Shown piece by piece: positions 46,468-61,972 of a stretch of 64,000 bases of DNA. The DNA is from Geomonas limicola (GTDB lineage Bacteria; Desulfobacterota; Desulfuromonadia; Geobacterales; Geobacteraceae): contig NZ_BLXZ01000005.1 in NCBI RefSeq assembly GCF_014193675.1, forward strand, positions 62,001 through 126,000, written 5' to 3'. The translations under genes were made by a program, and so were the position numbers. The notes beneath the pieces were generated by a model. The model ran no database searches. It saw only the letters and a list, made by a program, of their open reading frames with translations, and was not told the DNA's origin. Positions within the stretch are counted from its first letter, which is position 1. Every line of letters begins with the position of its first letter.

Positions 46468-46585
46468 GTGAAATCCTCTTGAATCGAAGTTCTACCTTCT
46501 AAGTTGCAGGGTCTAAGGTTGGGTGAGCGGGCCTCTCCGATGCATCCTGTAGTCCCCAGTCCCTAGCCCCTGCCTCATCCCTGCC

Positions 46586-47614
46586 TCACCTGATGCTCAG
46601 CACCGTCTTCTCGACCATCTTGGCGACGTTGGCGGGGAGCGGGGCATAGAGAAGTTTGTCCGCCATCTTCTGTCCCTGGTGCAATTCCCACTTCAGGAAG
46701 TCCACCAGTTTCTTCCCTTTGGCCTTGTCCTTCTGGTCCTGGTAGACCAACAACCAGGTGAAACCGACGATGGGGTAGGCGTCCTTGCCGGGCTGGTTCA
46801 CCAGCGAGATCCGGAAATCGGCCGGCATCGACTTGGCCGCTCCGCGTGCCGCTGCCGTGGTCGAGGCGATGGAGGGCTCGACGAAGCTGCCGGCGCTGTT
46901 TTTCAGCGAGGCGTAGGGGAGTTTGTTCTCGAAGGCGTAGGCGAGTTCCACGTAGCCGATGGTGTACGGGGTGGTCTTGATCTGGCCGGCAACACCTTCA
47001 TTACCCTTGCCGCCCAACCCGACCGGCCACTTGACCGAGGTACCCTTGCCGACCTTCTTGGCCCACTCCGGGCTCACTGCCGTCAGGTAATCGGTGAAGA
47101 TGCTGGTCGTGCCGGAGCCGTCGGAGCGGTGCACCACGATGATCGGCTTGTTGGGAAGCTTGAGCCCCGCGTTGTCGTGCATGAGCTTCGGGTCGCTCCA
47201 GGAGGTGATCTTCCCTTCGTAGATCTGGGCCAGGGTCTCCGGGGAGAGCTTGAGCCCTTTGCCTACCCCCGGCACGTTGTAGGTAACCACCACCGCACCC
47301 ATCACGGTCGGGAGGTGCAGCAGCTTGCCCGGGGCCGCCTTGAGTTCCTCGTCGCTGAGAAACTTGTCCGAGGCGCCAAAGTCAACGGTCTGAGCGGTGA
47401 TCTGCTTGATCCCGCCGCCGGAGCCGATGGACTGGTAGTTGAATTTCACGCTCTTGTCGATCTTGGCATACTCGGCGAACCACTTGGAGTAGAGCGGGTA
47501 CGGGAAAGTGGCACCCGCGCCGTTGATCAGGGTCTCCGCCGAAGCGTTACCCGCCAGTGCCAGTGCAGCCAGGACCGCTACAGTCAGTATCGATTTGCGT
47601 AGTGCGAACATCAT
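46586..47614 (-). CDS. pstS: Phosphate-binding protein PstS
   Basis: A 342-residue periplasmic binding protein. The signal peptide (LTVAVLAALALAGNASA) is followed by the PstS start ETLINGAGATFPYPLYSKW, then IGSGGGIKQI and VVHRSDGSGTTSIFTDYL, which hold the phosphate-binding residues. An AAGGAG site lies just before ATG 47614 (47611 is an equal choice). A Pho-box-like repeat lies about 46-73 bases upstream. Confidence 0.96.
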   Translation of the reverse strand: MMFALRKSILTVAVLAALALAGNASAETLINGAGATFPYPLYSKWFAEYAKIDKSVKFNYQSIGSGGGIKQITAQTVDFGASDKFLSDEELKAAPGKLLHLPTVMGAVVVTYNVPGVGKGLKLSPETLAQIYEGKITSWSDPKLMHDNAGLKLPNKPIIVVHRSDGSGTTSIFTDYLTAVSPEWAKKVGKGTSVKWPVGLGGKGNEGVAGQIKTTPYTIGYVELAYAFENKLPYASLKNSAGSFVEPSIASTTAAARGAAKSMPADFRISLVNQPGKDAYPIVGFTWLLVYQDQKDKAKGKKLVDFLKWELHQGQKMADKLLYAPLPANVAKMVEKTVLSIR

Positions 47615-48232: not shown

Positions 48233-48385
48233 TATGATCTTTAGATGTACTGGCATTGGGGGGCTTTCAGTCAATAATCTCTATGTCTGAATAACGGTGC
48301 TCCCCGTTGCGCGACATTAATAACCTTTCTTGAAATAGTGCTGGCGTCTTCGCCGAGACTGTGGTATCCAAGCGCAAAAATTAAC

Positions 48386-48481
48386 GCCTCTCCGAGCTTT
48401 GTCACCTACCGGTACGCCCACGGTGCAAAGCCTATGGGTGCAGCTGGAAACGGCGGTGCCTCTCTTTTGGAAAGGGGAGCC
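48386..48481 (+). promoter_or_regulatory. Moco/Tuco-type riboswitch candidate, copy A
   Basis: CTCTCCGAGC at the 5' end pairs through CTCTCC (48388-48393) with GGGGAG (48474-48479). Between them lie ACCTACCGG, CACGGTGC, and GGAAACGGCGGTGCC. The same blocks in the same order occur at 49644-49741, and they match my memory of the molybdenum/tungsten cofactor RNA motif. A terminator follows at 48512-48548, so control would be by transcription termination of the gene at 48594. Assignment needs a covariance search. Confidence 0.7.
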
Positions 48482-48511
48482 TTGTAAGCGCTCGATTTGC
48501 GTCGACCGCTG

Positions 48512-48548
48512 AAAGGCCTCTTTCTATGCGAAAAGAGGCCTTTTTTTT
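48512..48548 (+). terminator. Intrinsic terminator of leader A
   Basis: AAAGGCCTCTTT (48512-48523) pairs with AAAGAGGCCTTT (48532-48543) over an 8-base loop, followed by a run of T. It lies between the leader RNA and the start of the gene it should control. Confidence 0.9.
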
Positions 48549-48593
48549 CACCATCGTTATTTCCTTGGCTATACAACGCTAGCTGGAGCTGCC

Positions 48594-49325
48594 ATGCAGA
48601 TCGTGATTTCCATCGATGATACCGATAACCTCGAAAGCCGCGGCACGGGTGAGATCGCCTCGCTCATCGCCGAGGGGCTGACCGAAAAAGGGTGGGGGAC
48701 TGCCAGCCTGGTCACCCGGCACCAGCTGCTGGTACATCCCGATATCCCCTACACCTCGCACAACAGCGCCATGTGCTTCGCGGCGGAGATCGACGAGGGG
48801 GCTTGGGAGCAGGTCATCGGCTTTGCCGGGGAGTTCCTCAGGCGGGAGTCTGCCGAGGGCTCCGATCCGGGGCTCTGCGTGGTGAGCCTGCCGGGCCTCA
48901 GGCACACCCCGGAGCTGGTCGAGTTCGGGCGTCGCGCCAAACGGGAGGTGATCGCCATGCCGGAGGCTTACCAGCTTGCCGAACGGCTCGGTGTGCATCT
49001 TTCGGAGCACGGCGGGACCGGGCAGGGGATCATCGGCGCCCTGGCCGGGGCGGGACTGCGCCTGTGGGGCAACGACGGCAGGATGAAGGGGAGTCTCACG
49101 TTTGCGCGCGAAACGGTATCGGTCACCGAACTGCTGGCACACCCGAACGTGGACGAGGTGCGCTGCGTCACCGGTGTCCAGGTAAGCGCGCGGGACCTGG
49201 TGCGCTTGGGCGAGAAGCCGAAAACCGTGCTGATCGGCGGTGCGTCCGTCTTGCTGGTGTCTGCCGCAGAGTCCGCCGATGTTGCCTGGCAGACCCTGCA
49301 CCGCAGGCAGCTGAAGGATTACTAG
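48594..49325 (+). CDS. Stand-alone TiaS-like (IDDTD) protein
   Basis: A 243-residue protein that opens with VISIDDTDNLESRGTGEI, followed by NPDIPYTSHNS-type LLVHPDIPYTSHNSAMCF. The IDDTD start and the IPY(K/T)(T/S) stretch are the signature of the kinase-like domain of archaeal TiaS (tRNA-Ile2 agmatidine synthase). The zinc-ribbon and OB parts of TiaS are missing, and bacteria use TilS for that tRNA, so a different role is expected. Leader A with its terminator lies directly upstream, and the small Cys-rich gene starts 2 bases after its stop. I infer a role in molybdenum/tungsten cofactor or metal handling; no activity can be named. Confidence 0.75.
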   Translation: MQIVISIDDTDNLESRGTGEIASLIAEGLTEKGWGTASLVTRHQLLVHPDIPYTSHNSAMCFAAEIDEGAWEQVIGFAGEFLRRESAEGSDPGLCVVSLPGLRHTPELVEFGRRAKREVIAMPEAYQLAERLGVHLSEHGGTGQGIIGALAGAGLRLWGNDGRMKGSLTFARETVSVTELLAHPNVDEVRCVTGVQVSARDLVRLGEKPKTVLIGGASVLLVSAAESADVAWQTLHRRQLKDY

Positions 49326-49327
49326 CG

Positions 49328-49540
49328 ATGTGGCGCACCCTGGAAAACGGTACGAGGGAATTTCTCCCCGGCAAGGAGAACTGGGCGGCCGCGGCCCTCG
49401 CGGCGCTCGACTGTCCCGGGTTTCTGCTCGACGTCGATGAAGAGGTGATCGCCGACGAAGAACGCTCCTGCTACAACTGCCGTTATCGGCGCTGGAGTGC
49501 CGCTTCGTTCACCTGCCAGTGGCGCTTCCAACAGGGCTAG
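49328..49540 (+). CDS. Small Cys-rich protein
   Basis: A 70-residue protein with CYNCRY and a third Cys in FTCQWRF near the C-terminus, probably a metal or thiol site. It has no signal peptide and I do not recognise the family. It begins 2 bases after the TiaS-like stop and is thus in the leader-A unit. Confidence 0.7.
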   Translation: MWRTLENGTREFLPGKENWAAAALAALDCPGFLLDVDEEVIADEERSCYNCRYRRWSAASFTCQWRFQQG

Positions 49541-49643
49541 AAGGGATTAAGGGGGTAGCAACCCCATCACACATCAAGGTTTCGCCAGGTCCCTTGTATC
49601 CCCTTGATCCCCTGTAACCCTGTTGGCTTTTCAAATAGTTGTG

Positions 49644-49741
49644 CATCTCCGAGCTGTCCCGCCTACCGAGGTCGTCCTCCACGGCGCGCAGCTAACGGGT
49701 CCTGCCGGAAACGGCAGCGCCTTCCTTTTGAAAAGGAGAGA
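49644..49741 (+). promoter_or_regulatory. Moco/Tuco-type riboswitch candidate, copy B
   Basis: ATCTCCGAGC, then GCCTACCGAGG, CCACGGCGCG, and CCGGAAACGGCAGCGCC appear in the same order as in copy A, and CTCC (49647-49650) pairs with GGAG (49735-49738). A perfect palindrome ACCGGCC-GC-GGCCGGT follows at 49745 and could be an antiterminator or spacer stem. The terminator at 49763-49800 precedes the ECF transporter gene. The loop lengths differ between copies while the stems are kept, which is a sign of real RNA structure. Confidence 0.7.
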
Positions 49742-49762
49742 CCAACCGGCCGCGGCCGGTGA

Positions 49763-49801
49763 GGGGCTCCCTTGTACTTAAAAAGGGCGGCCCCTTTTTT
49801 G
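49763..49801 (+). terminator. Intrinsic terminator of leader B
   Basis: GGGGC-T-CCCTT (49763-49773) pairs with AAGGG-CG-GCCCC (49783-49794), followed by seven T. It stands between leader B and the ECF operon. Confidence 0.85.
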
Positions 49802-49836
49802 TGCCCTAACTCGCGATAGATAAAGGATTTCTGCGT

Positions 49837-51228
49837 TTGAATGACCTGCTGCTCGATATCGATCGCCTAAGCTACCGCTACCCCGGAGCCGCGCAGCCCG
49901 CACTGAACGAGATCTGCTGTACGGTCAGCGCGGGGGAGTGCATCTGCCTCACCGGGCATTCCGGCTGCGGTAAGTCCACGCTCCTTAGTGCCGTCATGGG
50001 GCTTTTGCGGGGTGGTCGATTGTCCGGACGGGTGAGCATCGCCCGAGGGATGGGCGCAGGGAGCGGGTCCTGTCCCGCCGGCATGGTGTTCCAGAATGCC
50101 GAATCGCAACTGATCTGCACCAGCGTGGCCGAGGAGGTCGCCTTTGGACCGGAAAACCTCTGCGTCCCCCCTGAGGAGATCGGTCCACGGGTCCTGGAGG
50201 CGCTCGCCGCGGTCGGCATGGAGGATCATCTCGGGCGCAACCCGGAACGGTTTTCGGCGGGACAGAAACAGCGGGTGGCCATCGCCTCGGTGCTGGCCAT
50301 GCAGCCTAAACTTCTGCTTTTGGATGAGCCGACGTCCCAGCTCGATGCCGTGGGTAAAGCGGAACTGGCCGGCATCCTGACCCGGTTGAAACGCCTGGGG
50401 TACACCCTGATCATCGCAGAGCACGATCCGCGTCCCTTTGCCGGGCTGATCGACCGCTACCTGATGCTGGAGCTCGGTTCGCTGATTGCCGAGCAAAAGA
50501 GTGCTCCGGGTGTCGAGTACTTTCGCAACCGTCGCACCGAGCCCGTGGCCTGCTGCTGGGCGGCGGCGGGGAGTTCTCTCGAGGTGGCCGGAATAGAGCT
50601 CGCCTACCCGGAAACCGGGACGGTGCTCAACGGGGTGAGCCTGACGGTTCCCCGCGGCGAGAGGCTGCATCTCTTTGGCCACAACGGTGCCGGGAAATCG
50701 ACCCTGTTGCGCTGCCTGTCGGGGCTGGAGCGCCCGGACCGCGGCGAGGTGATGCTCTGCGGACTGAAAAATCCGCAGCCCGAACAGCTCCCGGGGAAGG
50801 TCGGGGTGCTCTTCCAGAATCCGGCGCGGCAGCTTTTCGGGGAGACGGTACGGGAAGAGGTGGCCTTCACCCTGCAGCGGCTGGGGCTTACGCGCCCCGA
50901 GTGGGAGCTGCGGGTCGCCGAGGCCCTGGAGATCTGCCGGATCGCGCACCTGGTCGAGCGCGCGCCGCTCACCCTGAGTTTCGGCGAACAGCACCGTGTG
51001 GCCCTTGCGGCCGTGCTGGCGCCGCGTCCTGAACTCTTGCTCCTCGACGAACCCTTCGCAGGGCTCGATTTTCCCCAGCGCCTGGCGCTGCTCGATATCC
51101 TGGGCGAGTTGCCGGGTCGGCTGGGAACCACGGTGCTCATCGTTTCGCACGACGAACTCCCCGACCCGCGTTGGGCCGACCGCAGCCTGATCCTTTCCGG
51201 AGGAGCCCTTGGCGAGCGCTCCTGGTAA
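49837..51228 (+). CDS. ECF transporter ATPase, two fused nucleotide-binding domains
   Basis: A 463-residue protein with two ABC domains. The first has GHSGCGKST, FSAGQKQRVAIA and LLLLDEPTSQLD; the second has GHNGAGKST, LSFGEQHRVALA and LLLLDEPFAGLD. Fused ATPases of this kind power energy-coupling-factor (ECF) importers. The start is TTG 49837 with AAGGA nine bases upstream. It overlaps the T-protein gene by 20 bases. Substrate is set by the S protein, not by this gene. Confidence 0.93.
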   Translation: MNDLLLDIDRLSYRYPGAAQPALNEICCTVSAGECICLTGHSGCGKSTLLSAVMGLLRGGRLSGRVSIARGMGAGSGSCPAGMVFQNAESQLICTSVAEEVAFGPENLCVPPEEIGPRVLEALAAVGMEDHLGRNPERFSAGQKQRVAIASVLAMQPKLLLLDEPTSQLDAVGKAELAGILTRLKRLGYTLIIAEHDPRPFAGLIDRYLMLELGSLIAEQKSAPGVEYFRNRRTEPVACCWAAAGSSLEVAGIELAYPETGTVLNGVSLTVPRGERLHLFGHNGAGKSTLLRCLSGLERPDRGEVMLCGLKNPQPEQLPGKVGVLFQNPARQLFGETVREEVAFTLQRLGLTRPEWELRVAEALEICRIAHLVERAPLTLSFGEQHRVALAAVLAPRPELLLLDEPFAGLDFPQRLALLDILGELPGRLGTTVLIVSHDELPDPRWADRSLILSGGALGERSW

Positions 51229-52012
51229 AGGGGGGCTGCGCCGGACCTTGCGCAGCTGCGAGTATGGCTGCCAGTTCGTGGCCCACGATTCGCCGGTGCA
51301 CCGGCTGAGCGCGGGTATGAAGCTTGGCATCGGGATGCTTTTAAGCGCCTCGGCTGCCGGCGGGCGCACCCCGGCAACCCTGGGGGCGCTGGTGTTGGTC
51401 ACGCTCTGCTACTACCTTGCTGCGCGGCTTACCCTGGCAGATCTGTGGCGCGACATCAGGCTCTTCATGTTCCAGGCGGCCCTGGTCATTCCCCTGTACT
51501 GCCTGGTGCACGGCCCGGCCAAGGGGCTCTGGCCCGGTATCCGGATCTCGACCCAGATCATCCTTTTTTACCTGCCGGGGGCGGTGTTCCTGCGCACCAC
51601 GCGCAGTTCCGAGGTGATGCGGGGGCTCAGGCGCGTGCTCCCGTACCGGGTCTCTTTCCTGGTGTTCGTCAGCGTGCGCTTCGTGCCGTTCTTTTTCCGG
51701 GAGATCGCCGACATCACCGCCGCACAGCGCCTGCGGGGCGCCCGGCTCCTGCCGCGCCAGAAGCTTAACCCGCGCAACTGGCCGGACCTCTTCAACTGCC
51801 TGATCTTACCGCTCATGGTCAGGGCCTTGAAGACGGCGGACGAGGTAGCGCGCTCGGCGGAGTCCCGCGGCTTCGGGATGTACCCCGAGCGGACCTTTTT
51901 CTCGGCCGACCAACTGATCCGAAGGGCGGGTGACACCGGAACAGCGCAGCAAGGTGAACCTTCGGCCCCGACAATAAGAACAGCAGCATCGAATTCAACG
52001 GTTAGCTCATAG
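51209..52012 (+). CDS. ECF transporter T component (CbiQ-like)
   Basis: A 267-residue membrane protein with about five helices, the CbiQ/EcfT pattern AQRLRGARLLP and the second coupling stretch EVARSAESRGFGMYP near the C-terminus, whose A-R-G motifs dock on the ATPases. TTG 51209 is preceded by GGAGGAG. It should hold the S component and the fused ATPase together in the inner membrane. Confidence 0.88.
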   Translation: MASAPGKGGLRRTLRSCEYGCQFVAHDSPVHRLSAGMKLGIGMLLSASAAGGRTPATLGALVLVTLCYYLAARLTLADLWRDIRLFMFQAALVIPLYCLVHGPAKGLWPGIRISTQIILFYLPGAVFLRTTRSSEVMRGLRRVLPYRVSFLVFVSVRFVPFFFREIADITAAQRLRGARLLPRQKLNPRNWPDLFNCLILPLMVRALKTADEVARSAESRGFGMYPERTFFSADQLIRRAGDTGTAQQGEPSAPTIRTAASNSTVSS

Positions 52013-52033
52013 CAGCAAGGAGAACCAGTCAGT

Positions 52034-52612
52034 ATGGAAACCAGGTCCGAACCAATCTTTCTCTGGCGCCGCTTCACGCTCAGGGAGGCCGTGCTGTTGT
52101 GCTTTTGCGCCACCTTTATCGTGCTCACCAGGGCAGGGTTGAGACTGCACCTGCACATGCCGGGGCACGTGATGTTCTTCACCATGTTCTTTTTGCTCCT
52201 GGCACGCGGCTTCGTGCCCAAGCTGGGATCCGTCACCTTGGTTGGCCTCCTCACCAGTCTGACCAGCGTGCTCCTCGGCATGGGGGTAAGCGGCCCCATC
52301 GTGCTGGTGAAGTTCCTGCTCCCCGCGGTGCTGGTGGACCTCGCCGGTTTCCTGGCGCCGGGCTTCGTCACCAGCGTGCTCGGTTGCCTGGCGGTCGGCG
52401 TTTTCGCCTCGATTACCCGCGCCGGAGTGAGCACCGGTGTCGAATACCTGATAGGAATGGAGGAGGAGATCATCATCGGCAAAGCCCTCATCTCCGCCGG
52501 TTTCAGCGGGTTGTGGGGAGGACTCGGTTCACTTGCCGTCCCGGCGATCATCCGCCGTTTGCGGCTCAATGGTCTCATCGACGACGGCACGGAAGGCAGC
52601 CTTGACGCATGA
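52034..52612 (+). CDS. Candidate ECF S component
   Basis: A 192-residue protein with about five or six membrane helices, of the size and form of ECF substrate-binding S proteins. It does not match a specificity family I can name. In the first periplasmic-side region His39, His41 and His45 form an HxHxPGH cluster, which could contact a metal or oxyanion. It lies between the T protein and the TonB gene, and the TonB start overlaps its stop. Confidence 0.65.
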   Translation: METRSEPIFLWRRFTLREAVLLCFCATFIVLTRAGLRLHLHMPGHVMFFTMFFLLLARGFVPKLGSVTLVGLLTSLTSVLLGMGVSGPIVLVKFLLPAVLVDLAGFLAPGFVTSVLGCLAVGVFASITRAGVSTGVEYLIGMEEEIIIGKALISAGFSGLWGGLGSLAVPAIIRRLRLNGLIDDGTEGSLDA

Positions 52613-53516
52613 CCTGCACGGCATGCCGCGCTTCGGCGGACCGCTGCTCGTTTCACTGGCGCTGCACCTGGTGCTGCTCCTTGCGGTGACCGGGGTGCGT
52701 TGGTCTATGCAGCAGGTTCCCAAGGGAGCCCCGGAGGACTCGGTGCTCCACAAGGACCCGCTCGCGGTTGCAGTGCAGGTCGACCTTTCCTCGTTGCCGC
52801 TGCCTGGTGTCGGGAGTACCTCCTTTGTTGGGGTTGCCACGCGTCCGCCGGCTGCTGAGGCAGCGGCTAAGCAAACGGCGATACTGCCGGTGGTTGTCGC
52901 GCCGGCCAGGCCGATGGCGGCAGCCACGGATCGCAAGGGCATCCTGTCGCCAGCGGCTGCGCCGGTTGCCGCGGCGCTGGCAGACCCTCTGCCGGCAAGT
53001 AAAGGCGTATCCGCGGCTACTGCCGGAACGGTGCCCGGCTCGTCAACCACACGGACAGAACCGCACGCCGCTGCGACACCGCAACAAGCTGCTTTGGGAG
53101 CTCCACACGCCGCAGGTCCCGGAGCTGCCGGCGCTGGTGCCTCCGGAGCAGCGTCAAAGGCCGGGGCAGGGCAGGGGGCCCAGGCGGGGGGTGGCGGAGC
53201 AGGAAACTCCGGAGCTGTCCGGCGCGGATCCTACCAGGGACGGATCAAGGCACTCATCGAGGCGCACAAGAAGTACCCGGTGGCGGCGCGCAAGCTGGGG
53301 AGGGAGGGGAGATGTGACCGGCGGCTGGTCCTGGCCCGCGACGGCTCTTTGAAGCAGGTCGATTCGGTGAGCTCCTGCGGTCACCCCTTTCTGGATGCCG
53401 CGGCGACCCGGGCCATTACCGAGGTGGGAACCTTTCCGCCGCTCCCGGAGGAGTTCGGCGCTCCCCAGGAAAGCTTTACCGTCACCCTGAGCTTCTCGTT
53501 GAGCGACGGCAGGTGA
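52602..53516 (+). CDS. TonB family energy transducer
   Basis: A 304-residue TonB-like protein: one N-terminal membrane helix (LLVSLALHLVLLLAVTGV), a long Ala/Pro/Gly-rich linker that spans the periplasm, and a C-terminal TonB domain with KYPVAARKLGREG and AITEVGTFPPLPEEF. It couples the proton motive force, with ExbB/ExbD encoded elsewhere, to an outer-membrane receptor, most likely the one encoded at 55062. TTG 52602 with GGAAGG was chosen; ATG 52623 is the alternative. Confidence 0.88.
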   Translation: MTHDLHGMPRFGGPLLVSLALHLVLLLAVTGVRWSMQQVPKGAPEDSVLHKDPLAVAVQVDLSSLPLPGVGSTSFVGVATRPPAAEAAAKQTAILPVVVAPARPMAAATDRKGILSPAAAPVAAALADPLPASKGVSAATAGTVPGSSTTRTEPHAAATPQQAALGAPHAAGPGAAGAGASGAASKAGAGQGAQAGGGGAGNSGAVRRGSYQGRIKALIEAHKKYPVAARKLGREGRCDRRLVLARDGSLKQVDSVSSCGHPFLDAAATRAITEVGTFPPLPEEFGAPQESFTVTLSFSLSDGR

Positions 53517-53539
53517 GGTTGTCATAGCTGGTGGCACAG

Positions 53540-53661
53540 ACCCCCTCGCCTCCTCCCCTTGCAGGAGGGGGTGGAGGGATCCGCCATCGAGAATACTGGC
53601 CTGTTACCTCTGTGGCAATTCCCCCCTCACCCTAACCCTCTCCCGCAAGGGGAGAGGGGAT
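53540..53661. repeat. Two palindromic GC-rich dispersed repeats
   Basis: CCTCCCCTTGCAGGAGG-type (53540-53580) and CCCTCACCCTAACCCTCTCC with GGGGAGAGGGGA (53620-53661) each form a hairpin. They fill the gap between tonB and the first FN3 gene and might attenuate transcription between them. Confidence 0.7.
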
Positions 53662-53749
53662 ATGTAACTGTAACCAACGGCAGGCTAATCGAGGGGCTGT
53701 TTTTTTCTCCTTAACCTCAACCTTAACCTGCCTATCTTTAGGAGGAACC

Positions 53750-54985
53750 ATGAAGCACCTGCAAAAATGGAATGGAATTCTGGCGGGGCTCTGCTTGGCC
53801 ATGCTGGTACTGGCGCTCGCCGGTTGCGGCAGCTCGAGCAATACCCCGGCACCTGCAGCCCTCACGGGCGTAACTGCCGGGGCCGGCGACCAGCAGGCGA
53901 CGGTAACCTGGACACCGGTAAGTAACGCAACCAGCTACAACATCTACTACAGCACCTCTGCCAGCGTCTCCACGTCGACCGGCTCCAAAGTGGTCAACGC
54001 GACCACTCCCTACAACGTCACCGGTCTCACCAACGGCACCACCTACCATTTCGTGGTGACCGCCGTGAATGCCGGTGGCGAGAGCACGGTGTCCAACGAA
54101 GTAAGCGCGACCCCCGAACCGCCGGCACCCGCAGCCCTGGCCGGGGTGACCGCCACTGCCGGTAACCTGCAGGTCGCCGTGAACTGGGCCACGGTGAGCA
54201 ACGCCACTGGTTACAACATCTACTACAGCACCACCCCTAACGTGACTACCGCTGCTGTGGACAAGGTGCTGAATGTCGCCGGCCCGAGCACGGTTACCGG
54301 CCTTCTCAACGGTACCACCTACTACTTCGTGGTGACCGCGATAAACGGTGGCGGTGAAAGCCCGGTTTCCAACGAAGTCAGCGCGATGCCGGTACCGGCA
54401 GTTCCTGCAAAACCGACGGGCCTGTCGCTGTCGGGAGGCGACACCCAGGTGACTGTTTCCTGGACGAACGATAGTGCCGCCACGTCGTACAACATCTACT
54501 ACTCGACATCCTCGACCTTCACCACTACCAGTAACGGAGTCAACAAAATTACCGGCGCTGCTAACGGACAGGCCGTTACCGGACTTACTAACGGAACCGC
54601 TTACTATTTTGCGGTTACCGCGCAGAACCTCGGTGGCGAGAGCCAGCTTTCGACCATCAAGACGGCCACCCCCGCAACGCAGGTCCAGATCCCGACCAAC
54701 CCTTCCGCCCTCAATGCCTCTGCTGGTGTCGGACAGGCAACCATCACCTGGGGTTCCGTTGCCAACGCAACGTCCTACACCATTTACTATCTGCAGGCAC
54801 CTGCGTCTCCCCTGATTTCCGGCACGACCGTCAAAGCTACTAACAACGCCATTACCAACGCTACTTCGCCCTCGGTCGTGACCGGTCTCACTTCCGGTCT
54901 TAACTACTGGTTTGTCGTCACCGCCTCCAACTCCGCAGGCGAAGGCGCACCACAGAACAATCCGAAGGCAGCCCTGATCCAGTAA
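53750..54985 (+). CDS. Lipoprotein with four fibronectin type III domains
   Basis: A 411-residue protein with a lipobox (LALAGC; Cys near residue 26), followed by four FN3 repeats of about 90 residues. Each repeat shows the VTWTPVSNATSYNIYYS and LTNGTTYHFVVTAVN-type strands, and the first three end near VSNEVSATP. It is probably anchored on the outer membrane. A TAGGAGGAACC site precedes the ATG. Its partner is likely the TonB-dependent receptor next door. Confidence 0.85.
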   Translation: MKHLQKWNGILAGLCLAMLVLALAGCGSSSNTPAPAALTGVTAGAGDQQATVTWTPVSNATSYNIYYSTSASVSTSTGSKVVNATTPYNVTGLTNGTTYHFVVTAVNAGGESTVSNEVSATPEPPAPAALAGVTATAGNLQVAVNWATVSNATGYNIYYSTTPNVTTAAVDKVLNVAGPSTVTGLLNGTTYYFVVTAINGGGESPVSNEVSAMPVPAVPAKPTGLSLSGGDTQVTVSWTNDSAATSYNIYYSTSSTFTTTSNGVNKITGAANGQAVTGLTNGTAYYFAVTAQNLGGESQLSTIKTATPATQVQIPTNPSALNASAGVGQATITWGSVANATSYTIYYLQAPASPLISGTTVKATNNAITNATSPSVVTGLTSGLNYWFVVTASNSAGEGAPQNNPKAALIQ

Positions 54986-55061
54986 TCAACCTCCACCCAC
55001 CGGTGCTCAGGGACGACTCTCCCTCACCCTGCAGCACCGGTTCTGTCATTGGTGCAACGAC

Positions 55062-57023
55062 ATGAAGCAAAGAACTATCTGGCCGGCGCTCACCATACTC
55101 TGCGCCCTTCCTCTGGCAGGCCACTCCGCCTTAGCCGCGCAGCCCGCAGACTCGACCTCAGAGCGCTACAACCTGGGGGAGATCGTGGTTTCCGCGCCTG
55201 GCGAAGGGGTCCAGGCAACCGAAACGGTGCGCACGGTAACCGCCAAGGATATCGAGGCCCGCGGTGCCCGAACCCTTGACGAAGCCATCGCCCTCTTGCT
55301 CGGCGTCAACATCCGTAACGGCGGGGAAGGGGTGCCGCGCATCGATATCAGGGGCTTCAAGACCCGGCACGTGGTGCTGCTGTTGGACGGCATCCCGATG
55401 AACTCGGCGTTCGACCAGCAGTTCGACCCGACGACGATCTCCACGGAAAACATCGCCGAGATCAAAATGACTTCCGGCGCCAGTTCGATCCTCTACGGGC
55501 AGGGAGGATTGGGTGGCGTCATCAACATCATCACTAAAAAGGGGGGGCAGCGCACCCAGGGGATGGTCGGCGTCGAGGTGGGCGATCACGAGCCGTACCA
55601 GGCAAAGGCCGCCGTGTCCGGTGCCACCGAGCGCTTCAACTACTTCTTCAGCGGTAATGCCCAAAAGGTGGATGCCTTCCCGCTTTCCGGCGCCTTCCGG
55701 CCGACTGGGGAGCAGGGCTCCGGTTACCGGAAAAACAGCGACCGCGAACGCAACAGCCTCTTGGGGACCGTCGGGTTCACCCCGAACCAGGACCTCGCCC
55801 TGGGGCTCACGGTCAACTACGCCCAGGGGAGCTACGGCAAGCCGGCCGGTACCATCAGGGATGACGCCGACCTCTTTGCCAGCACCCCGAAGTACCAGCG
55901 CATTCCCGACTATTCGACCGCCTCCGTCCAGCTTGCGGTCGAGTCCGCCGCCACCCAGCACCTCAACCTGAGGGGCTGGGCCTGGTTCACCCACCATGAC
56001 GAGCTGCAGAACCAGTACAGCCAGTCTGATTACGCCACCACGAACCTGCAGCAAAAGGTGAAGTCGACCATCAGCGGTGTCACGCTGCAGCCCAAGTACG
56101 ATTTCGGGCGCGCCGGTTCGCTCGCCCTGGCGCTCTCGGTCGAAGACGACGCCTGGGACACCTACACCGTCACCGGGACGGCAACCGACGAGCACCACGA
56201 ACAACAGGTCTACTCCGCGGGGATCGAGTACGAGTTCTCGCCGCTGTCCGGGCTCAACCTGGTTGCCGGGTACGGTCACTACTGGCAGGCCAGAAGCGAG
56301 GCGACCCTCGATGATTACAGCGCCCTCTTCGGGGCCAGCTACGATTTCACTGCGGCGACGCGCCTGAAGGCCTCCTTCAAGCGCAACGTGCGCTTCCCGT
56401 CTCTTGGGGACCTCTACGATACCTTCAACAACGGCAACAAACAGCTCTTGCCGGAACGCTCCCACACCTACGAAGCGGGAGTCGAGCAGAAACTCCCCCG
56501 GGAGACCACGGCTGCACTCACCGGTTTCTACACCACGGCCGAGAACCTGGTGCAGAACGACCAGGTGGTCGGCAGGAAGGTGAACCTCCCCGAGGTGCGC
56601 TTTACCGGGGCGGAGCTCGCCGTCGCCAACGGCGCCGTGAAGAACCTCCTGCTGCGCGGCAGCTATTCGTTCCTGCACTCCGAGGACCGTTCGCGGACCG
56701 GCCGGGAGGAGCAGCAGTACACCCCGGAGCACGTGATCGTTTTGGAGGGGAAGTACGACTTCGCCTGCGGTTTTGCCCCCTATGCCTCGGTGCGCTACGT
56801 CGGTAACCAGTACCTCTACACCAAGAACAACGTGCAACCCGTGCAGAAGGCGAAACTGAACGACTACACCCTGGTGAACCTCAAGCTGAACCAGCAGGTC
56901 TGGGGCGGCAGGGCGAACCTCTACGTCGGGGCCGACAACCTCTTCGATCAGAACTACGAGACCAGCTACGGCTTCCCCCAGCCGGGCAGGTTCGTCTACG
57001 GCGGCGTGGAGTTCCGTCTCTAA
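55062..57023 (+). CDS. TonB-dependent outer-membrane receptor
   Basis: A 653-residue receptor with a signal peptide (cleavage near SALAAQ), a TonB-box-like LGEIVVSAP, a plug domain (TVTAKDIEARGARTLDEAI, then GGLGGVINIITKKGG) and a 22-strand-type barrel ending in a C-terminal FVYGGVEFRL. It resembles small CirA/BtuB-class receptors. The operon context suggests uptake of an oxyanion complex or of a cofactor rather than a siderophore, but the ligand cannot be read from sequence. Confidence 0.93.
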   Translation: MKQRTIWPALTILCALPLAGHSALAAQPADSTSERYNLGEIVVSAPGEGVQATETVRTVTAKDIEARGARTLDEAIALLLGVNIRNGGEGVPRIDIRGFKTRHVVLLLDGIPMNSAFDQQFDPTTISTENIAEIKMTSGASSILYGQGGLGGVINIITKKGGQRTQGMVGVEVGDHEPYQAKAAVSGATERFNYFFSGNAQKVDAFPLSGAFRPTGEQGSGYRKNSDRERNSLLGTVGFTPNQDLALGLTVNYAQGSYGKPAGTIRDDADLFASTPKYQRIPDYSTASVQLAVESAATQHLNLRGWAWFTHHDELQNQYSQSDYATTNLQQKVKSTISGVTLQPKYDFGRAGSLALALSVEDDAWDTYTVTGTATDEHHEQQVYSAGIEYEFSPLSGLNLVAGYGHYWQARSEATLDDYSALFGASYDFTAATRLKASFKRNVRFPSLGDLYDTFNNGNKQLLPERSHTYEAGVEQKLPRETTAALTGFYTTAENLVQNDQVVGRKVNLPEVRFTGAELAVANGAVKNLLLRGSYSFLHSEDRSRTGREEQQYTPEHVIVLEGKYDFACGFAPYASVRYVGNQYLYTKNNVQPVQKAKLNDYTLVNLKLNQQVWGGRANLYVGADNLFDQNYETSYGFPQPGRFVYGGVEFRL

Positions 57024-57075
57024 ACACGCGCTGCCGAAATGCAGCGGCAGGTACCACCCCTGGAGGAACATCCCG

Positions 57076-58509
57076 ATGAAGCACGGCGGAAAAATCATCG
57101 CCCAGATACTTATCCTGGTACTGCTCGCCCTGGGTCTTGGAGGCTGCGGCGCCTCTCCCTGGCGTTTCGATCCCGGCGTCCCGGCTCCCCCCGCCACCGT
57201 GGTTGCTACCGCGGGGAACGGGGTAGTCCGCGTGAGCTGGAGTCAGCTGTCCAACGCTACCGGCTACGACGTGTATTTCGCAAGCTCGCCCGGCGTGTCC
57301 ACATCCAGCAGCAGCATGCTGAACCTTGGCGGATCCTTCGCCGATGTGACGGGGCTGCAAAACGGCACTCCCTACTACTTCCGCGTGGTTGCCCACAACT
57401 CCAAAGGCTCCAGCCCGCTATCCAACGAGGTATCCGCCACGCCGTCACCAGCCGGGATCTTCCTGTCGACCGACCTGGTGGGAACCTGGCGCTTCAACGC
57501 CCTGGTCTCGGGCGCCGGAGCGAAATGGATGCGCGGCAGCGTGACGATCGACGCCTTGGGCGTGGTGACGGTCGGCTCCTATCTCGACAGTGCAGGAGGC
57601 ACGACGGCCCCAGCCGAGCTTTTCAGCACCATGAGCATCCTTCCCGACGGGATCGTCTCGCAGGATGGCGCGGCTGCCGGTTTCCACGGCACCCTCTCCG
57701 AGAACATCTACCGCGACCTTTTGGTCGGCGCCGGCACAACCACGTCGGGGCAGCTCACCGTGGTGCTGCAGAAGGTGGTGCCGGGGATCAGCTTCGCCTC
57801 CACCGATATTCAAGGGACCGGCCAGTCCGGAGCCGGGCCGCTGCTCATGGTCTATCACCAGCTCTCCAGCGGCGCGGTCGGCGAGTGGGAGTGGGGTGCC
57901 TTCCAGGTCGGTCGCGATCAGGCCGAAACCTACAGCGCGATCGCGGCGCAGAGCGCTAAGCTGCTTCCCGGTGCCGGTTCCAAGGTGGTCGGCATGACCA
58001 TCAGCGCCGACGGCCTGGTCTCGGAGGCCCCCAAGGCAGGTGTCACCCCGCAGCCGGCGGCTCTTTTGACCGATGCGGTGATGTCTGCGGACAAGATGAC
58101 CATCGTGGGGACGGCGACCGACAACCAGGGTGCCTACCTTTTGCGGATCATCCAGCTGGTGCATCCGCCCACCGTTGCCCTCACCGCGACGAGCTACCAG
58201 CTTGCCGATCTTGCCGGAAGTTACACCTACCTCGCCGCCCTCGGCGGAACGAACCCGGGGTGGGCCTTGGCAACCGAGACCGTGGGAAGCGTCGGCAACG
58301 CCTCGTTTACCGGGTACCTTACCTCGGAGGGGAGCACCACGGCACCGGCCCCCTTCGCCCTGGGACTCGACGCACAGGGTAAAGTCACCTCCGGCGCAGA
58401 TACCACGTTTCACGGCCAGTTTTCCTATGCGAAGGATCTGGTGGTGGCCACCGGCACCGGGGCTGGCGGGGCTGGGTACCTGAGCATCTCCGTGAAACGG
58501 AACAACTAA
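57076..58509 (+). CDS. FN3-domain lipoprotein
   Basis: A 477-residue protein with a lipobox (LGLGGC; Cys near residue 25) and one FN3 domain (about 35-125, VRVSWSQLSNATGYDVYFA). A large Gly/Ala/Thr-rich region follows, with a loosely repeated beta pattern that recurs (GSVTIDALGVVTVGSY, LVGAGTTTSGQLTVVLQ). The N-terminal domain is close to those of the lipoprotein at 53750. It is probably a surface or periplasm-facing partner of the receptor. Confidence 0.8.
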   Translation: MKHGGKIIAQILILVLLALGLGGCGASPWRFDPGVPAPPATVVATAGNGVVRVSWSQLSNATGYDVYFASSPGVSTSSSSMLNLGGSFADVTGLQNGTPYYFRVVAHNSKGSSPLSNEVSATPSPAGIFLSTDLVGTWRFNALVSGAGAKWMRGSVTIDALGVVTVGSYLDSAGGTTAPAELFSTMSILPDGIVSQDGAAAGFHGTLSENIYRDLLVGAGTTTSGQLTVVLQKVVPGISFASTDIQGTGQSGAGPLLMVYHQLSSGAVGEWEWGAFQVGRDQAETYSAIAAQSAKLLPGAGSKVVGMTISADGLVSEAPKAGVTPQPAALLTDAVMSADKMTIVGTATDNQGAYLLRIIQLVHPPTVALTATSYQLADLAGSYTYLAALGGTNPGWALATETVGSVGNASFTGYLTSEGSTTAPAPFALGLDAQGKVTSGADTTFHGQFSYAKDLVVATGTGAGGAGYLSISVKRNN

Positions 58510-58531
58510 CGACAAAAGAGAGAGGGTCGCC

Positions 58532-58924
58532 ATGGAAAGCGAAGCCCCGCGCAAGAAAAAGCGGTCCAAACTATCCAAAACCATCGACCTCGTGCTGCGC
58601 TACTGGCACGTCGGTACTTCCAGCGTCCTCTTCGGCGGTATGGTGCTGGGAATCCCCTTCGAACGCCTCGGTGTCTGGCACACCCTGGCCATCGTCACGG
58701 GCGGAAGCCTCGTCCTCTCCGGCATCTGCCAGAGCCGACACTGGTCCTACCAGGTGCGCGGACTGCTGGCGTTCACGCACGTGGGGCTCTTGGCCCTGGT
58801 GCATTTCCAGCACGACTGGGTGCTGCCGGTGCTCACCGCGGTCTTGCTCTGCGGTTTCCTCGGCAGTAACCTGCCGGGAAATCTGCGCCACTGGTCGGTG
58901 CTTCACGGCGAGCGGGTTGACTGA
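58532..58924 (+). CDS. Small His-rich membrane protein
   Basis: A 130-residue protein with a basic cytoplasmic N-terminus and four membrane helices. His residues sit in WHVGTSS, WHTLA, SRHWSY, FTHVG, FQHDW and RHWSVLHG, a density that suggests a heme or metal role. I do not know the family. AGAGAGAGGG is the ribosome site. It lies between the second FN3 lipoprotein and a MITE-like element. Confidence 0.68.
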   Translation: MESEAPRKKKRSKLSKTIDLVLRYWHVGTSSVLFGGMVLGIPFERLGVWHTLAIVTGGSLVLSGICQSRHWSYQVRGLLAFTHVGLLALVHFQHDWVLPVLTAVLLCGFLGSNLPGNLRHWSVLHGERVD

Positions 58925-58972
58925 AGGGTAGGGCGTGAGGCTCGGCAGAGGGGCCCCTGACCTCAGCCACGG

Positions 58973-59132
58973 TGATGAGCGCTGATCTTTTCGCCAGTGG
59001 GTCCCTCCCCCTTCAAGAGAGGACAGGAGGGGGAGGGGATCGACTCCGTGCCATGGTTTGCCCCATCCCCACCCCAGCCCTCCCCTTGAAGGGGAGGGGG
59101 AAATCTTGCGAGCCGATGATTGGCGTTCATCA
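58973..59132. mobile_element. MITE-like element, copy 2
   Basis: TGATGAGCGC (58973-58982) and GCGTTCATCA (59123-59132) form imperfect terminal inverted repeats. The interior matches the element at 32854-32986 (GCCAGTG-GTCCCTCCCCCTTCAAG, then GGACAGGAGGGGGA, then GTTTGCCC) and carries an extra CCCCAGCCCTCC / GAAGGGGAGGGG arm. It has no coding capacity and lies just before the TupA gene. Confidence 0.7.
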
Positions 59133-59156
59133 GGTAGGTAAAAAAGGAGGGTTGCT

Positions 59157-60008
59157 ATGAAACTGCTGCTGACGGGAGTCGCGTTAGTACTGTTGGCCGT
59201 GGCGCTTGGGGCCCCGCAGGCCCGGGCCGATCAGGGGTTCCTGCTCATGGCGAGCACCATCGGCCCCATCGATGCCGGCATCGTCCCGGCACTGGAGGAG
59301 GCCTTCGAGAAGGAGACGGGCATCAGGGTGCGCCACGTCGGAGCCGGTACCGGCGAGGCCCTGCAGATCGCCAAAAAGGGGAGCGTGGACCTGGCGCTGG
59401 TTCACGCCAAATCGCTCGAAGAAGCCTTCGTAAAGGAAGGTTTTGGTACGGAGCGGGTGCCCCTCATGTACAACGATTTCGTCATCGTTGGGCCGGTCGA
59501 CGATCCGGCAGGCATCAAGGGGATGAAGAGCGCCAAGGACGCCCTGAAGCAGCTGGCCTCCTGCCAGGCGCTCTTCGTGAGCCGCGGCGACAAGTCCGGA
59601 ACCCACGTGGCGGAACTGGAACTCTGGAAAGGGACCGGCGTTACTCCCGCCTCGCCCTGGTACACCGTCTACGAGAAGGGAAACGAAGGAAACGTCCCGA
59701 CCCTGCGCTATACCGACCAACGCCAGGCCTATACGGTCATCGACCGGGCGACCTACCTCTCCCTCAGAGACGCCATCAAACTGGTGGTGCTGGTGGAGGG
59801 CGACGAGGTCCTCCTGAACCGCATCTCGCTCATTCCCGTGAGTCCGAAGAAATTCCCCGCGGTTCATCACGCGGAGGCTCTGCAGTTTGTGGCCTGGTTG
59901 ACCGACCCCGCGAAGGGGCAGCGGATCATAGCCGAATTCGGTAGGGAAAAATACGGTGCTCCACTGTTCTTTCCGGACTCCAGGCAGTGGCATGCCACCC
60001 ATCGGTGA
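59157..60008 (+). CDS. tupA: Tungstate-binding protein, TupA-like
   Basis: A 283-residue periplasmic binding protein. The signal peptide cleaves near ARA-D. The mature part has ASTIGPIDAGIVPALEEAFE, VRHVGAGTGEALQIAKKG, DLALVHAKSLEEAFVKEGF and PLMYNDFVIVGPVDDPAGI, which is the TupA pattern; TupA binds tungstate very tightly. The membrane part TupBC is not in the window. AAAGGAGG precedes the ATG. As the last gene of the leader-B block it is the best clue to that block's substrate. Confidence 0.87.
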   Translation: MKLLLTGVALVLLAVALGAPQARADQGFLLMASTIGPIDAGIVPALEEAFEKETGIRVRHVGAGTGEALQIAKKGSVDLALVHAKSLEEAFVKEGFGTERVPLMYNDFVIVGPVDDPAGIKGMKSAKDALKQLASCQALFVSRGDKSGTHVAELELWKGTGVTPASPWYTVYEKGNEGNVPTLRYTDQRQAYTVIDRATYLSLRDAIKLVVLVEGDEVLLNRISLIPVSPKKFPAVHHAEALQFVAWLTDPAKGQRIIAEFGREKYGAPLFFPDSRQWHATHR

Positions 60009-60598
60009 TGCCTGGTGACCGTTGATATTGATTGAGGACTCGCACCTTGCCTGCGAGAACTGCAACGCAAAAAAAGCCGTATCCTGTCCCAGCGACAGGA
60101 TGCGGCTTTTTGGTTTGTCTCTCCCGCTACCTAAGGACATTATTTCTGCACCCCGCCTGGAACTGTGCAATTTTCATGTGGTGACGCGTCCCCTGTGTAA
60201 GCCGCTACAGGGATTTACCGGTGTTCTAAGGAATTCTCTGTATAAGAGATTGGCCCTAACTGGTGCATAGTTGGCGGATGGTTGCGCCGTTTTTTTGCCA
60301 AGGTAACGAAATCACTGGTAAAAGAATGCAGAACAGGCTACAAAGGCTCGAAGACGCCATGGGGTCTCACGGCCGGGTCGGGTAAAGGTGCTTGGTTAGG
60401 CCAAGTGGCACCGGTTTTCCTGGCTGAGGGGACCTGTCCGGGAGCGTCGCAGAACCGTGTCTGAGGCCGCCGTAAGCTGCGCCTGCGCAGCCGGGAAGCA
60501 AAGGTACCGGCTCCGGATTCGGTCAGCTGAGCTCAAGAGAAGAACGCTGCCTTGCGTGGCTCCGGTAACCCCGGGAGACTACGCTGGAAGACTACGCC
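60009..60598. other. Long intergenic region
   Basis: Of 590 bases only the terminator at 60071-60112 is clear. The rest (60113-60598) holds GC-rich fold-back stretches such as GCACCGG...CCTGTCC around 60390-60440 but no gene, no ribosomal-binding site before a frame and no riboswitch core I recognise. Confidence 0.5.
60071..60112. terminator. Bidirectional Rho-independent terminator after tupA
   Basis: AAAAGCCG-T-ATCCTGTC (60072-60088) and GACAGGATGCGGCTTTT (60094-60110) form a long stem with a 5-base loop and one T/G wobble. An A run precedes it and a T run follows it, so it can stop transcription from either side. Confidence 0.9.
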
Positions 60599-61972
60599 AT
60601 GCTGTGCCACCACGTCCCGATCAGCTACCTGGTTCTCGATACCGAGGGGAAGGTCCTCAAGAGCAGCTATGCGACCGCCGAGCTGTTGGGGGTGCATCGC
60701 CTGCACCTGGTCCAGGTTCCTTTCAGCGACTTCGTCCTCGAAGAGTGCCGACCGCTGTTTCTCGCCCTGATCAGGCAAATTTTCGCGGAACCAGGGGCGC
60801 CGGTTACCTGCGAGCTCGTCCTGTGCACCGCGGCGCAACAGCCGCTCCAGGTGCAGCTGCAGGCGCAGGTACGTGATCCCGGCAACATCTGCCTGGTGAC
60901 CCTGACCGATGTGAGCTCGCTGCGCGCCAGCCCGACCTTCGAGACTGCTGCCGACCACGCGCTTGCCTGGGAGTTCTGGGTCGGTCCCGACGGCAGGTTC
61001 ATCTACGTGTCGCCTGCCTGCCAGGCCCTTACCGGCTACCCGGCAGAGGAATTCCTGGCTGATCCCGAGCTCTTCGTGCGCATCGTCCACCCCGAGGATA
61101 CGCCCCCTTTTTTTCCGTCCGACCTCGTGCAGTACCGGCCGGAACCGCTGCCGCGCGAGTACCGGATCGTGCACCGCGACGGCAGCGTCCTCTGGATGCG
61201 GTACGAAGGGCAGCTGGTCACCGGTCCGGACCAGGGCATCCTGGGGCTCAAGGGGAACAACCGCGAGGTGACCCACGAGCGGCAGTTGCGCCAGCAGCTG
61301 GAACAGTCGGTCGAGGAGCTGAAAAAACTCACCGAGGAGCTGAACCTCTCCGAAGAACGGGAGCGGCGCCGCATCGCGCAGGCGCTGCACGACCAGGTGG
61401 TGCAGGGGCTCGCCCTCGGGAAACTGAACCTGGAGACGGTTCTCTTGAAGGGGGAGATCGCCGATCATCCTGTGCTGCAGGAACTGAAATCGATCCTGGA
61501 GTATTCGATCCAGGATCTGCGCGATCTCTGTTTCGACCTGAGCTCACCGCTGCTCTACGACCTGGGGCTGGAATCGGCCATCGGGTTTCTGGGAGAGAAA
61601 CTGGAGCAGAAGTTCGGCTACCATTTCATTTTCAACACCTGGGCCCGTGACAAGAAGCCGCTCGGCGAGGAGATCGCCGTGGCGATGTACCAGTTCTGTC
61701 GCGAACTGTTGATCAACGCGGGCAAGCACGCCCAGGCCTCCCAGGTGACCTGTCTGCTGTACCAGGACGAGCAACGCCTGATTTTGAACCTGCAGGACGA
61801 CGGCAAAGGGTTTGATCCGGAGCGGTACCAGGAGGGTTTCGGTCTCCCCAGCATCCGGCAGCGGGTCAACTACCTCGGCGGAACCCTTACCGTAAAATCC
61901 AAAGCGGGCGCCGGGACAACAACCGAGATAACCCTCTGGCTCGCCAAGCAATCCGCCAAGGAGACCCTATGA
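60599..61972 (+). CDS. PAS-domain sensor histidine kinase (NarL-family type)
   Basis: A 457-residue soluble kinase with two PAS-like domains (about 5-100, and 115-235 with WVGPDGRFIYVSPACQALTG). A HisKA_3 dimerisation domain follows, with the H-box ERERRRIAQALHDQVVQGL, then a HATPase domain (ELLINAGKHAQA N-box, DDGKGFD, GFGLPSIRQRV). No membrane helix is seen, so it senses inside the cell. An in-frame TAA at 60566 limits upstream starts. It is coupled with the regulator gene by a 4-base overlap. Confidence 0.92.
   Translation: MLCHHVPISYLVLDTEGKVLKSSYATAELLGVHRLHLVQVPFSDFVLEECRPLFLALIRQIFAEPGAPVTCELVLCTAAQQPLQVQLQAQVRDPGNICLVTLTDVSSLRASPTFETAADHALAWEFWVGPDGRFIYVSPACQALTGYPAEEFLADPELFVRIVHPEDTPPFFPSDLVQYRPEPLPREYRIVHRDGSVLWMRYEGQLVTGPDQGILGLKGNNREVTHERQLRQQLEQSVEELKKLTEELNLSEERERRRIAQALHDQVVQGLALGKLNLETVLLKGEIADHPVLQELKSILEYSIQDLRDLCFDLSSPLLYDLGLESAIGFLGEKLEQKFGYHFIFNTWARDKKPLGEEIAVAMYQFCRELLINAGKHAQASQVTCLLYQDEQRLILNLQDDGKGFDPERYQEGFGLPSIRQRVNYLGGTLTVKSKAGAGTTTEITLWLAKQSAKETL

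Follow-up and report, generated by a model that had tools for sequence, protein, structure and literature searches.

We describe a gene block on the forward strand of a 64-kb stretch of the Geomonas limicola genome (contig NZ_BLXZ01000005.1, positions 62,001 to 126,000), referred to here in its entirety as the window; the host genome measures 5.23 Mb. The block, at 48378-60112 of the window, comprises two leaders of the molybdenum cofactor/tungsten cofactor (Moco/Tuco) riboswitch class, a TiaS-like enzyme, a small cysteine (Cys) protein, an energy-coupling factor (ECF) importer made of a fused ATPase, EcfT and a substrate-binding (S) component, a TonB protein, a TonB-dependent receptor whose gene sits between those of two FN3 proteins, a 130-aa protein and a TupA-like protein (Table 1). 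The TiaS-like enzyme, which is the first gene, the 70-aa Cys protein and the 130-aa protein were absent from a first-pass annotation of this DNA, which had proposed a complete tungsten/molybdenum acquisition locus. Riboswitch class, terminators, protein families, folds, gene order and recurrence were computed here. The block very probably serves the physiology of the tungsten or molybdenum cofactor, and we put at roughly 0.6 the probability that it is a tungsten (possibly also molybdenum) acquisition operon in which a tungsten species is transported through the receptor and the ECF importer. Related genomes, the own genome included, carry G labels (58 in all, the own genome being G000) and loci fetched from genomes carry L labels.

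Table 1. Features of the block, with positions in the window
Feature	Position	Strand	Evidence and remarks
Moco/Tuco riboswitch aptamer 1, P3-lacking	48378..48493	+	RF01055 63.2 bits
Intrinsic terminator of leader 1, 13-bp stem and U tract	48511..48548	+	fold -18.3 kcal/mol
TiaS-TCKD-like enzyme, 243 aa	48594..49325	+	first gene of block; TIGR03280 and TiaS matches far below cut-off
Small Cys protein, 70 aa, C-x2-C...C	49328..49540	+	no Pfam family; recurs beside TiaS-like gene
Moco/Tuco riboswitch aptamer 2, P3-lacking	49635..49754	+	RF01055 52.8 bits
Intrinsic terminator of leader 2, U tract	49761..49796	+	fold -21.2 kcal/mol
ECF ATPase, two fused domains (EcfA-A')	49837..51228	+	TIGR04520 332 bits over two stretches, cut-off 315
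EcfT	51209..52012	+	PF02361 63.8 bits, cut-off 25
ECF S component, 192 residues	52034..52612	+	S-component fold; model pLDDT (predicted local distance difference test) 80.6
TonB	52623..53516	+	PF03544 50.2 bits; open frame from 52533, start 52623 inferred
FN3-repeat protein 1, apparent lipobox	53750..54985	+	PF00041, 4 stretches; LAGC read from sequence
TonB-dependent receptor	55062..57023	+	Plug PF07715 80.3 bits and barrel PF00593 104.5 bits
FN3 protein 2, apparent lipobox	57076..58509	+	PF00041; recurs beside receptor in relatives
130-aa predicted membrane protein	58532..58924	+	no family; homologues in L059 (= L114), L061 (= L119), L110, L117
TupA-like binding protein ("TupA2"), STIG for TTTS	59157..60008	+	NF041772 169.1 of 400 bits
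Block terminator, 18 pairs	60071..60111	+	pattern scan

The two leaders, earlier said to resemble the Moco/Tuco riboswitch, both pass the covariance model of this class, with scores above the RF01055 gathering score of 36 bits, and they are the sole Rfam matches above cut-offs in the window. These scores, together with riboswitches at the loci of relatives, rule out a chance structure. The genome holds one further RF01055 copy, a third riboswitch (leader L002) directly 5' of an aldehyde:ferredoxin oxidoreductase (AOR) gene with AFOR_N and AFOR_C domains, and a ThiF-family gene lies downstream. The P3 columns are deleted in the RF01055 alignments of both window leaders, as they are in all ten further alignments listed (10 of 15 matches), that of the AOR leader included. 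The Moco riboswitch senses the cofactor itself, and P3-lacking RNAs have been tied to Tuco metabolism since 17 of the 19 organisms that have them carry Tuco-related genes, which is a correlation and not ligand binding (Regulski et al. 2008, PMC2408646). The absence of the P3 stem places the window leaders, as predicted from sequence, in this tungsten subtype. An intrinsic terminator lies downstream of each aptamer. In leader 1 the 3' side of the aptamer can pair with the 5' arm of the terminator at -20.9 kcal/mol, a value reached by 5 of 1000 mononucleotide shuffles; the same rival pairing is weaker in leader 2 (-16.3 kcal/mol, reached by 68 of 1000 shuffles) and is not convincing. Our reading is that both are predicted OFF switches when ligand is bound. 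A terminator pattern scan gave 14 sites against a shuffle mean of 10.4 and missed the two leader terminators, and only its long stem at the end of the block is therefore used.

The three-part ECF importer recognized in the first-pass annotation is borne out by family matches of the ATPase and EcfT and by the fold of the third protein. A-A', T and a dedicated S component are encoded together, as in group I ECF transporters. The S protein matches no Pfam or NCBIfam family, CbiM and thiamine families included, and a sequence search of solved structures, with four rows at E 1 or below and E 0.29 as the best value, included no ECF protein. Its model has six helices. Foldseek places S components at all of ranks 1-12, none of which reaches E 0.001 (best 1.7e-3), and VIA-align places YkoE (5EDL) first (Z 16.4, root-mean-square deviation 4.6, 174 residues), followed by folate and thiamine S components at Z 14.2 to 12.8. 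Because the unrelated methane monooxygenase reaches Z 11.5 in the same comparison, only the YkoE row and the S-component rows above this background carry weight. The nearest folds (YkoE, ThiT, FolT and RibU) carry vitamins. Across 38 S sequences, six residues (F24, C25, G44, H45, G87 and P97) do not vary. By its predicted fold the window protein is an S component, of a family that the libraries searched do not name. A close known arrangement is the YkoEDC system of B. subtilis, a group I transporter in which the thiamine carrier YkoE (5EDL) is partnered by YkoD with two fused ATPase domains and the operon is under a THI box (PMC5037267). The two systems have in common a dedicated S component, a T protein, a two-domain fused ATPase and a riboswitch for the cofactor served. 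However, YkoEDC is Gram-positive, has no outer-membrane step and transports thiamine, and we found no sequence family that it shares with the window proteins. A cobalt ECF transporter has been reported in Geotalea (Kiessling et al. 2026, PMC13119186). The window importer is not of the cobalt type (CbiMQO), given that the CbiQ equivalog TIGR02454 scores 20.1 of 111.8 bits and the S component has no CbiM family match. As a separate observation among the matches listed, EcfA, EcfA' and EcfT-like genes of L091 (G029:C25, 9673-12221, minus strand) lie some kb downstream of a Moco riboswitch (14558-14674), behind a gene for a large membrane protein.

The outer-membrane part of the block was also correctly named beforehand. 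The receptor has both Plug and beta-barrel domains, the block encodes a TonB of its own, and both FN3 proteins match PF00041 with an apparent lipobox in each. Among the 25 NCBIfam matches listed out of 30, the receptor reaches no curated cut-off. Its best models, those of siderophore and B12 receptors, remain under cut-off (TIGR01779 136.8 of 599.7; TIGR01783 154 of 223.5), and by that measure it is neither BtuB nor a siderophore receptor; a search of solved structures at E 1e-20 gave no match. The overall design resembles cobalamin uptake, in which the receptor BtuB with TonB and an inner-membrane importer operate under the B12 riboswitch. In both routes the riboswitch of the product controls the outer-membrane receptor, TonB and importer together, but they differ in substrate and in the family of the inner-membrane transporter. 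A system for another nutrient, such as thiamine, cobalamin, cobalt or an iron chelate, with a Moco riboswitch present for some other reason, could be argued from the thiamine carrier as nearest S fold and from the receptor models just named. We regard this as very improbable, however, as the window and 15 relatives' loci contain no thiamine or cobalamin riboswitch above cut-off, the S component matches neither CbiM nor thiamine families, and the genes found as neighbours are AOR, Tup, MoaE and MoeA.

The first gene of the block encodes a relative of TiaS, the tRNA-Ile2 agmatidine synthetase. It is not TiaS, because it has 243 residues versus 420 and falls far below the TiaS cut-off (40.8 of 600 bits for the full-length equivalog NF040849) and, among NCBIfam models, that of methanogenesis marker 11. 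What it shares with TiaS is the N-terminal TCKD fold: its AlphaFold model (pLDDT 91.3) aligns with TiaS at Z 21.9 over 152 residues with 24% identity, the best unrelated row being at Z 7.8, and profile matches to TiaS chains have E values of 1.6e-7 to 1.9e-6. A likeness of the model to HPPK was rejected, as these rows (Z about 7.5) are at background level. Invariant in 17 TiaS-like sequences are D8-D11 (DDTD), R42, Y53-S55, N57-S58, D91-G93 and H139-T142. An open-access full-text search for "methanogenesis marker 11" listed matches that concerned matrix metalloprotease 11. TiaS-like genes occur in 25 of the 58 related genomes, namely in all 16 that have the S component and in 9 of the 42 that do not. 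For example, among the matches listed, the gene is directly behind a riboswitch in G009, G012 and G013 with no ECF gene within the 8-10 kb fetched, and it is divergent from an AOR gene in G006 and G014. Additionally, two TiaS-like genes are present in 12 relatives of the same genus or the same family; one second copy (L188:9487-10272) has an apparent molybdopterin oxidoreductase operon (Molybdopterin, Fer4, NrfD) at a distance of about 3.5 kb, and another (L189:9322-10104) has no molybdopterin oxidoreductase gene among the labels there.

An enzyme of this kind also suits a scheme of cofactor salvage, in which an intact pterin (molybdopterin, Moco or Tuco) from other cells would be imported and then remodelled by the TiaS-like protein. 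Vitamin carriers are the nearest S folds, the transporter is accompanied by a cytoplasmic enzyme of its own, what the riboswitch senses is the cofactor itself, and the ligands of TonB receptors are usually large or scarce. Several points nevertheless make salvage unlikely. Two MoaA-family genes (PF06463) are present, and the genome therefore probably makes molybdopterin, which would render salvage unnecessary. The TiaS-like gene is also found behind a riboswitch or in a Tup-MoeA operon without ECF genes and is therefore not tied to this importer, and free Moco is unstable outside proteins.

The TupA-like protein had been offered as the tungstate binder of the locus, a claim that proves weaker than stated: the protein does match NF041772, but below the cut-off and with an altered TTTS motif. 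We judge this cut-off severe because it is also missed by the TTTS-containing paralogue of the same genome (243.9 bits) and by all matches in 117 Shewanella genomes. Canonical TupA uses TTTS, H59, R118, T124 and D170 (PMC5517513). The window protein keeps equivalents of R118, T124, D170 and H59 (SRGD, SGTH, DRATY and VHA in alignments) and has STIG in place of TTTS, as do proteins of L062, L115, L116 and L181-L184. By this sequence feature the STIG-bearing proteins are a distinct TupA subfamily, which we term TupA2, and owing to the changed motif the window protein was rejected as proof of free tungstate. A full tupABC set is located elsewhere in the genome, at G000:C5:169085-171741 (L191), 47 kb from the TupA-like gene, and there is no TupB or TupC among the genes of 48378-60112; consequently the description of the locus as complete is not supported. 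Relative to the TupABC tungstate transporter, which belongs to the ATP-binding cassette (ABC) class, the block is alike in having a TupA-family protein and in the linkage of tup genes in relatives, but it is unlike in lacking TupB and TupC, in its changed TTTS motif and in having an ECF transporter as the inner-membrane part. As a separate observation, other periplasmic binding proteins, which are unusual for ECF transporters, are encoded in or beside ECF operons at L063:13868-14743, L112:16421-17281, L123:6800-7792, L105:14997-16136 and L110:6458-7405.

Receptor, ECF importer and enzyme form a core that is found again in Geobacterales, in other Desulfobacterota and in Shewanella. The S component is present in 16 of the 58 related genomes, including the congeneric G015, with an S protein 95% identical to that of the window. 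A Moco riboswitch lies no more than 6 kb upstream of S in 11 of these 16 (own genome, L051-L058, L060 and L061), and the S loci of two genomes end at contig ends (L059 = L114 in G016; L064 in G029). Other contigs of these two genomes hold a riboswitch, TiaS-like gene, binding protein, EcfAA' and EcfT at a contig end (L105, G016), and EcfAA', receptor and TiaS-like gene with no riboswitch (L186, G029). A scan of genome contigs seeded with two peptide patterns gave 61 loci, 23 of them from outside Shewanella and 38 from Shewanella. The former are mostly from Geobacterales and other Desulfobacterota metagenome-assembled genomes, with one labelled Anaeromyxobacter; ten repeat loci of the related genomes (L108, L109, L111, L113, L114, L118, L119, L122, L125 and L127). 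Among loci scanned for RNA families, L110, L112, L115, L116 and L117 have Moco riboswitches. The core was seen extended by TonB, the FN3 proteins, the 130-aa protein and TupA2 on the Geobacterales side alone.

In Shewanella, S is found in 76 of the 117 genomes searched, and the 20 loci read have the order receptor, EcfAA', T, S and TiaS-like gene, mostly followed by the Cys protein. By labels, 37 of the 38 fetched loci hold the receptor, ATPase, T, S and TiaS-like genes, and the Cys protein is likewise present in 37. TupA-family matches, all below the model cut-off, occur in 107 of the 117 genomes. The distance from S to tupA is 9.6-18.6 kb in 55 of the 76 S-positive genomes and at least 101 kb on the same contig in six, with the two genes on different contigs in 15. 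AFOR_N is found in 24 of 76 S-positive versus 4 of 41 S-negative genomes (Fisher p 0.012, kinship ignored). In S. oneidensis, SO4718 is a regulator annotated "for tungstate (molybdate) transport" (PMC2667191), and PMC10017123, in the excerpt, does no more than name SO_4711 as a phosphodiesterase. In L177, from a Shewanella whose cassette is not beside tupA, genes for an HTH_17 and PBP_like regulator (1846-2748, minus strand) and a sigma-54 activator (2960-4483, plus strand) lie beside the receptor gene, and open reading frames (ORFs) resembling these regulators occur in L174, L175 and L179.

Gene order in relatives places the core among tungsten and molybdenum genes. In L060 (= L118, Geobacter sp. 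NC_groundwater_76) the order is riboswitch, AOR, ThiF, riboswitch, TiaS-like, Cys protein, receptor, EcfAA', T, S and TonB, and then riboswitch, MoaE-like, TupA, an ATPase in the TupC position, MoeA and MogA-like; the ORF tables showed no separate ORF for a TupB permease. MoaE, TupA and TupC-like genes are upstream of the TiaS-like and ECF genes in L110. TTTS-type TupA is encoded in the S loci L110, L115, L116 and L117 (the motif in L058 is TTSS) and MoaE in the S loci L110, L116, L117 and L061 (= L119). L181-L184 (G055, G039 and G047), which have no S match, contain TiaS-like, MoaE and TupA2 genes with TupA, TupB, TupC, MoeA, MoaC and MogA/MobB downstream; this set is complete in L182 and is cut or not fully labelled in the others. 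The conserved neighbourhood thus supports the earlier claim of a tungsten/molybdenum locus with receptor, TonB and ECF importer, but the exact substrate (free ion, chelate or pterin) is not fixed by it. If only free tungstate were taken up, the receptor and TupA2 would feed TupBC and the ECF importer would be a co-regulated transporter of another nutrient. This fits the conserved H59, R118, T124 and D170 equivalents of TupA2, its position beside a TTTS-type TupA in L115, L116, L181 and L182, and a Porin_O_P gene in the outer-membrane slot of L181 and L183. It is nonetheless improbable, as receptor and ECF genes stay together without TupA2 in Shewanella and Geobacterales, and in L060 the receptor gene is between those of the Cys protein and EcfAA'.

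Other outer-membrane systems were observed near the same riboswitch class. In L090 (G029:C110:33501-52000) Moco riboswitches flank genes that include, among the matches listed, FecCD, an ABC ATPase, FmdE, ExbD, TonB, a receptor other than that of the window (26% identical to it) and two Peripla_BP_2 proteins, with XdhC, a further ABC ATPase and an SBP_bac_11 protein downstream. L096 (G034:C4:95001-114500) resembles L090, with FecCD tested against Pfam and the remainder read from ORFs. Porin_O_P genes behind a Moco riboswitch (L181:10655-11959 and L183:917-2473), beside MoaE and TupA2 genes, encode a possible passive outer-membrane counterpart. As a control, relatives of the window receptor were sought at E 1e-6 in 40 riboswitch loci without S, some of them short: none of 20 (L066-L085) and two of 20 (L086-L105) had one, both of the latter being FecCD systems. 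That three unlike outer-membrane components are found near one riboswitch class argues that outer-membrane crossing is a real bottleneck for this metal.

A number of observations weigh against a tungsten acquisition operon. AOR does not discriminate as a partner because AFOR_N is nearly universal in the order (at least 57 of 58 Geobacterales genomes), and AFOR_N is absent in 52 of the 76 S-positive Shewanella genomes. The association of S with TupA in Shewanella is in favour (a TupA match is present in all 76 S-positive genomes and S in none of the 10 TupA-negative ones), but its Fisher p of 1.3e-5 is not corrected for kinship. TupA2, which lacks TTTS, was observed next to ECF genes in the window and in L062, L115 and L116 but nowhere else. 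The five ECF-associated binding proteins of L063, L105, L110, L112 and L123 lack the SRGD-SGTH stretch and the oxyanion arginine; if they serve the ECF importer, the ligand is therefore unlikely to be a bare oxyanion held in the manner of TupA. G004 has TiaS-like, EcfAA' and EcfT genes behind two riboswitches with no S match and no receptor. Conservation of the block with the same leaders, a check proposed in the first-pass annotation, is seen near S in most S-positive relatives but is not general: there is no riboswitch in the fetched S loci L062, L063 and L065 (= L127), or in L120, L121, L123, L124, L126-L131 and L166 (L124 and L128 end close upstream); the loci without one include both Shewanella loci tested. 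The receptor-ECF-enzyme core is therefore wider than riboswitch control.

With these points considered, tungsten acquisition is the reading that we prefer; what is transported, in which direction, and what the TiaS-like enzyme does are inferred in the following scheme. The operon would be switched off by the cofactor that it serves, such that scarcity of Tuco lets transcription past the terminators of both P3-lacking riboswitches. Powered by the TonB of the same block and assisted by the two FN3 proteins, the receptor would then bring a scarce tungsten species, most likely complexed, into the periplasm, through which TupA-like or other binding proteins may carry it. The ECF importer, with its fused ATPase, EcfT and new S component, would move this species to the cytoplasm, where tungsten or the cofactor may be acted on by the TiaS-like enzyme, whose fold is that of a domain using ATP, and by the small Cys protein. 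Free oxyanion would be taken up by the TupABC encoded elsewhere. A more specific version, which we advance tentatively and hold to have clearly less than an even chance, is a two-membrane route for complexed or pterin-bound tungsten, served in some species by a binding protein without an oxyanion site (L063, L105, L110, L112 and L123), with the S component founding a new substrate class and the TiaS-like protein performing a new step of tungsten-cofactor handling.

The closest precedent that we found is in Pelobacter carbinolicus, where TonB channels near molybdopterin-responsive riboswitches "may transport metals" (Aklujkar et al. 2012, PMC3543383). These are likewise ligand-gated outer-membrane channels near such riboswitches, but the excerpt of that paper describes no ECF partner, TiaS-like enzyme or tungsten route. 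A search of open-access full text, a corpus outside which most subscription papers lie, brought up no account of tungsten uptake by an ECF or TonB route; term searches of PMC13328260 and PMC13197769 gave no TonB or ECF terms, and the excerpt of PMC545781 describes no receptor or ECF route for tungsten. As for the surroundings of the block, ORFs indicate a pst-like phosphate-uptake cluster (ATPase, two permeases and a PstS-like protein) adjoining it at 43686-47614 on the minus strand, and an apparent PAS histidine kinase with a LuxR-type response regulator past the block terminator at 60599-62625.

Uptake of tungsten and molybdate has so far been described from the periplasm inward. A recurring receptor-TonB-ECF set under the tungsten-cofactor riboswitch would extend this by an energised crossing of the outer membrane and by a substrate class new to ECF transporters, and the TiaS-like protein is a candidate part of tungsten-cofactor metabolism. 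Because of the frequency of S among Shewanella genomes (76/117) and of the receptor and TiaS-like genes among the loci fetched from them (37/38), the question is testable in a genetically tractable genus. If the two-membrane route for complexed or pterin-bound tungsten is true, bacteria would take up tungsten as a "tungstophore" or as a cofactor, in the way that they take up iron or cobalamin.

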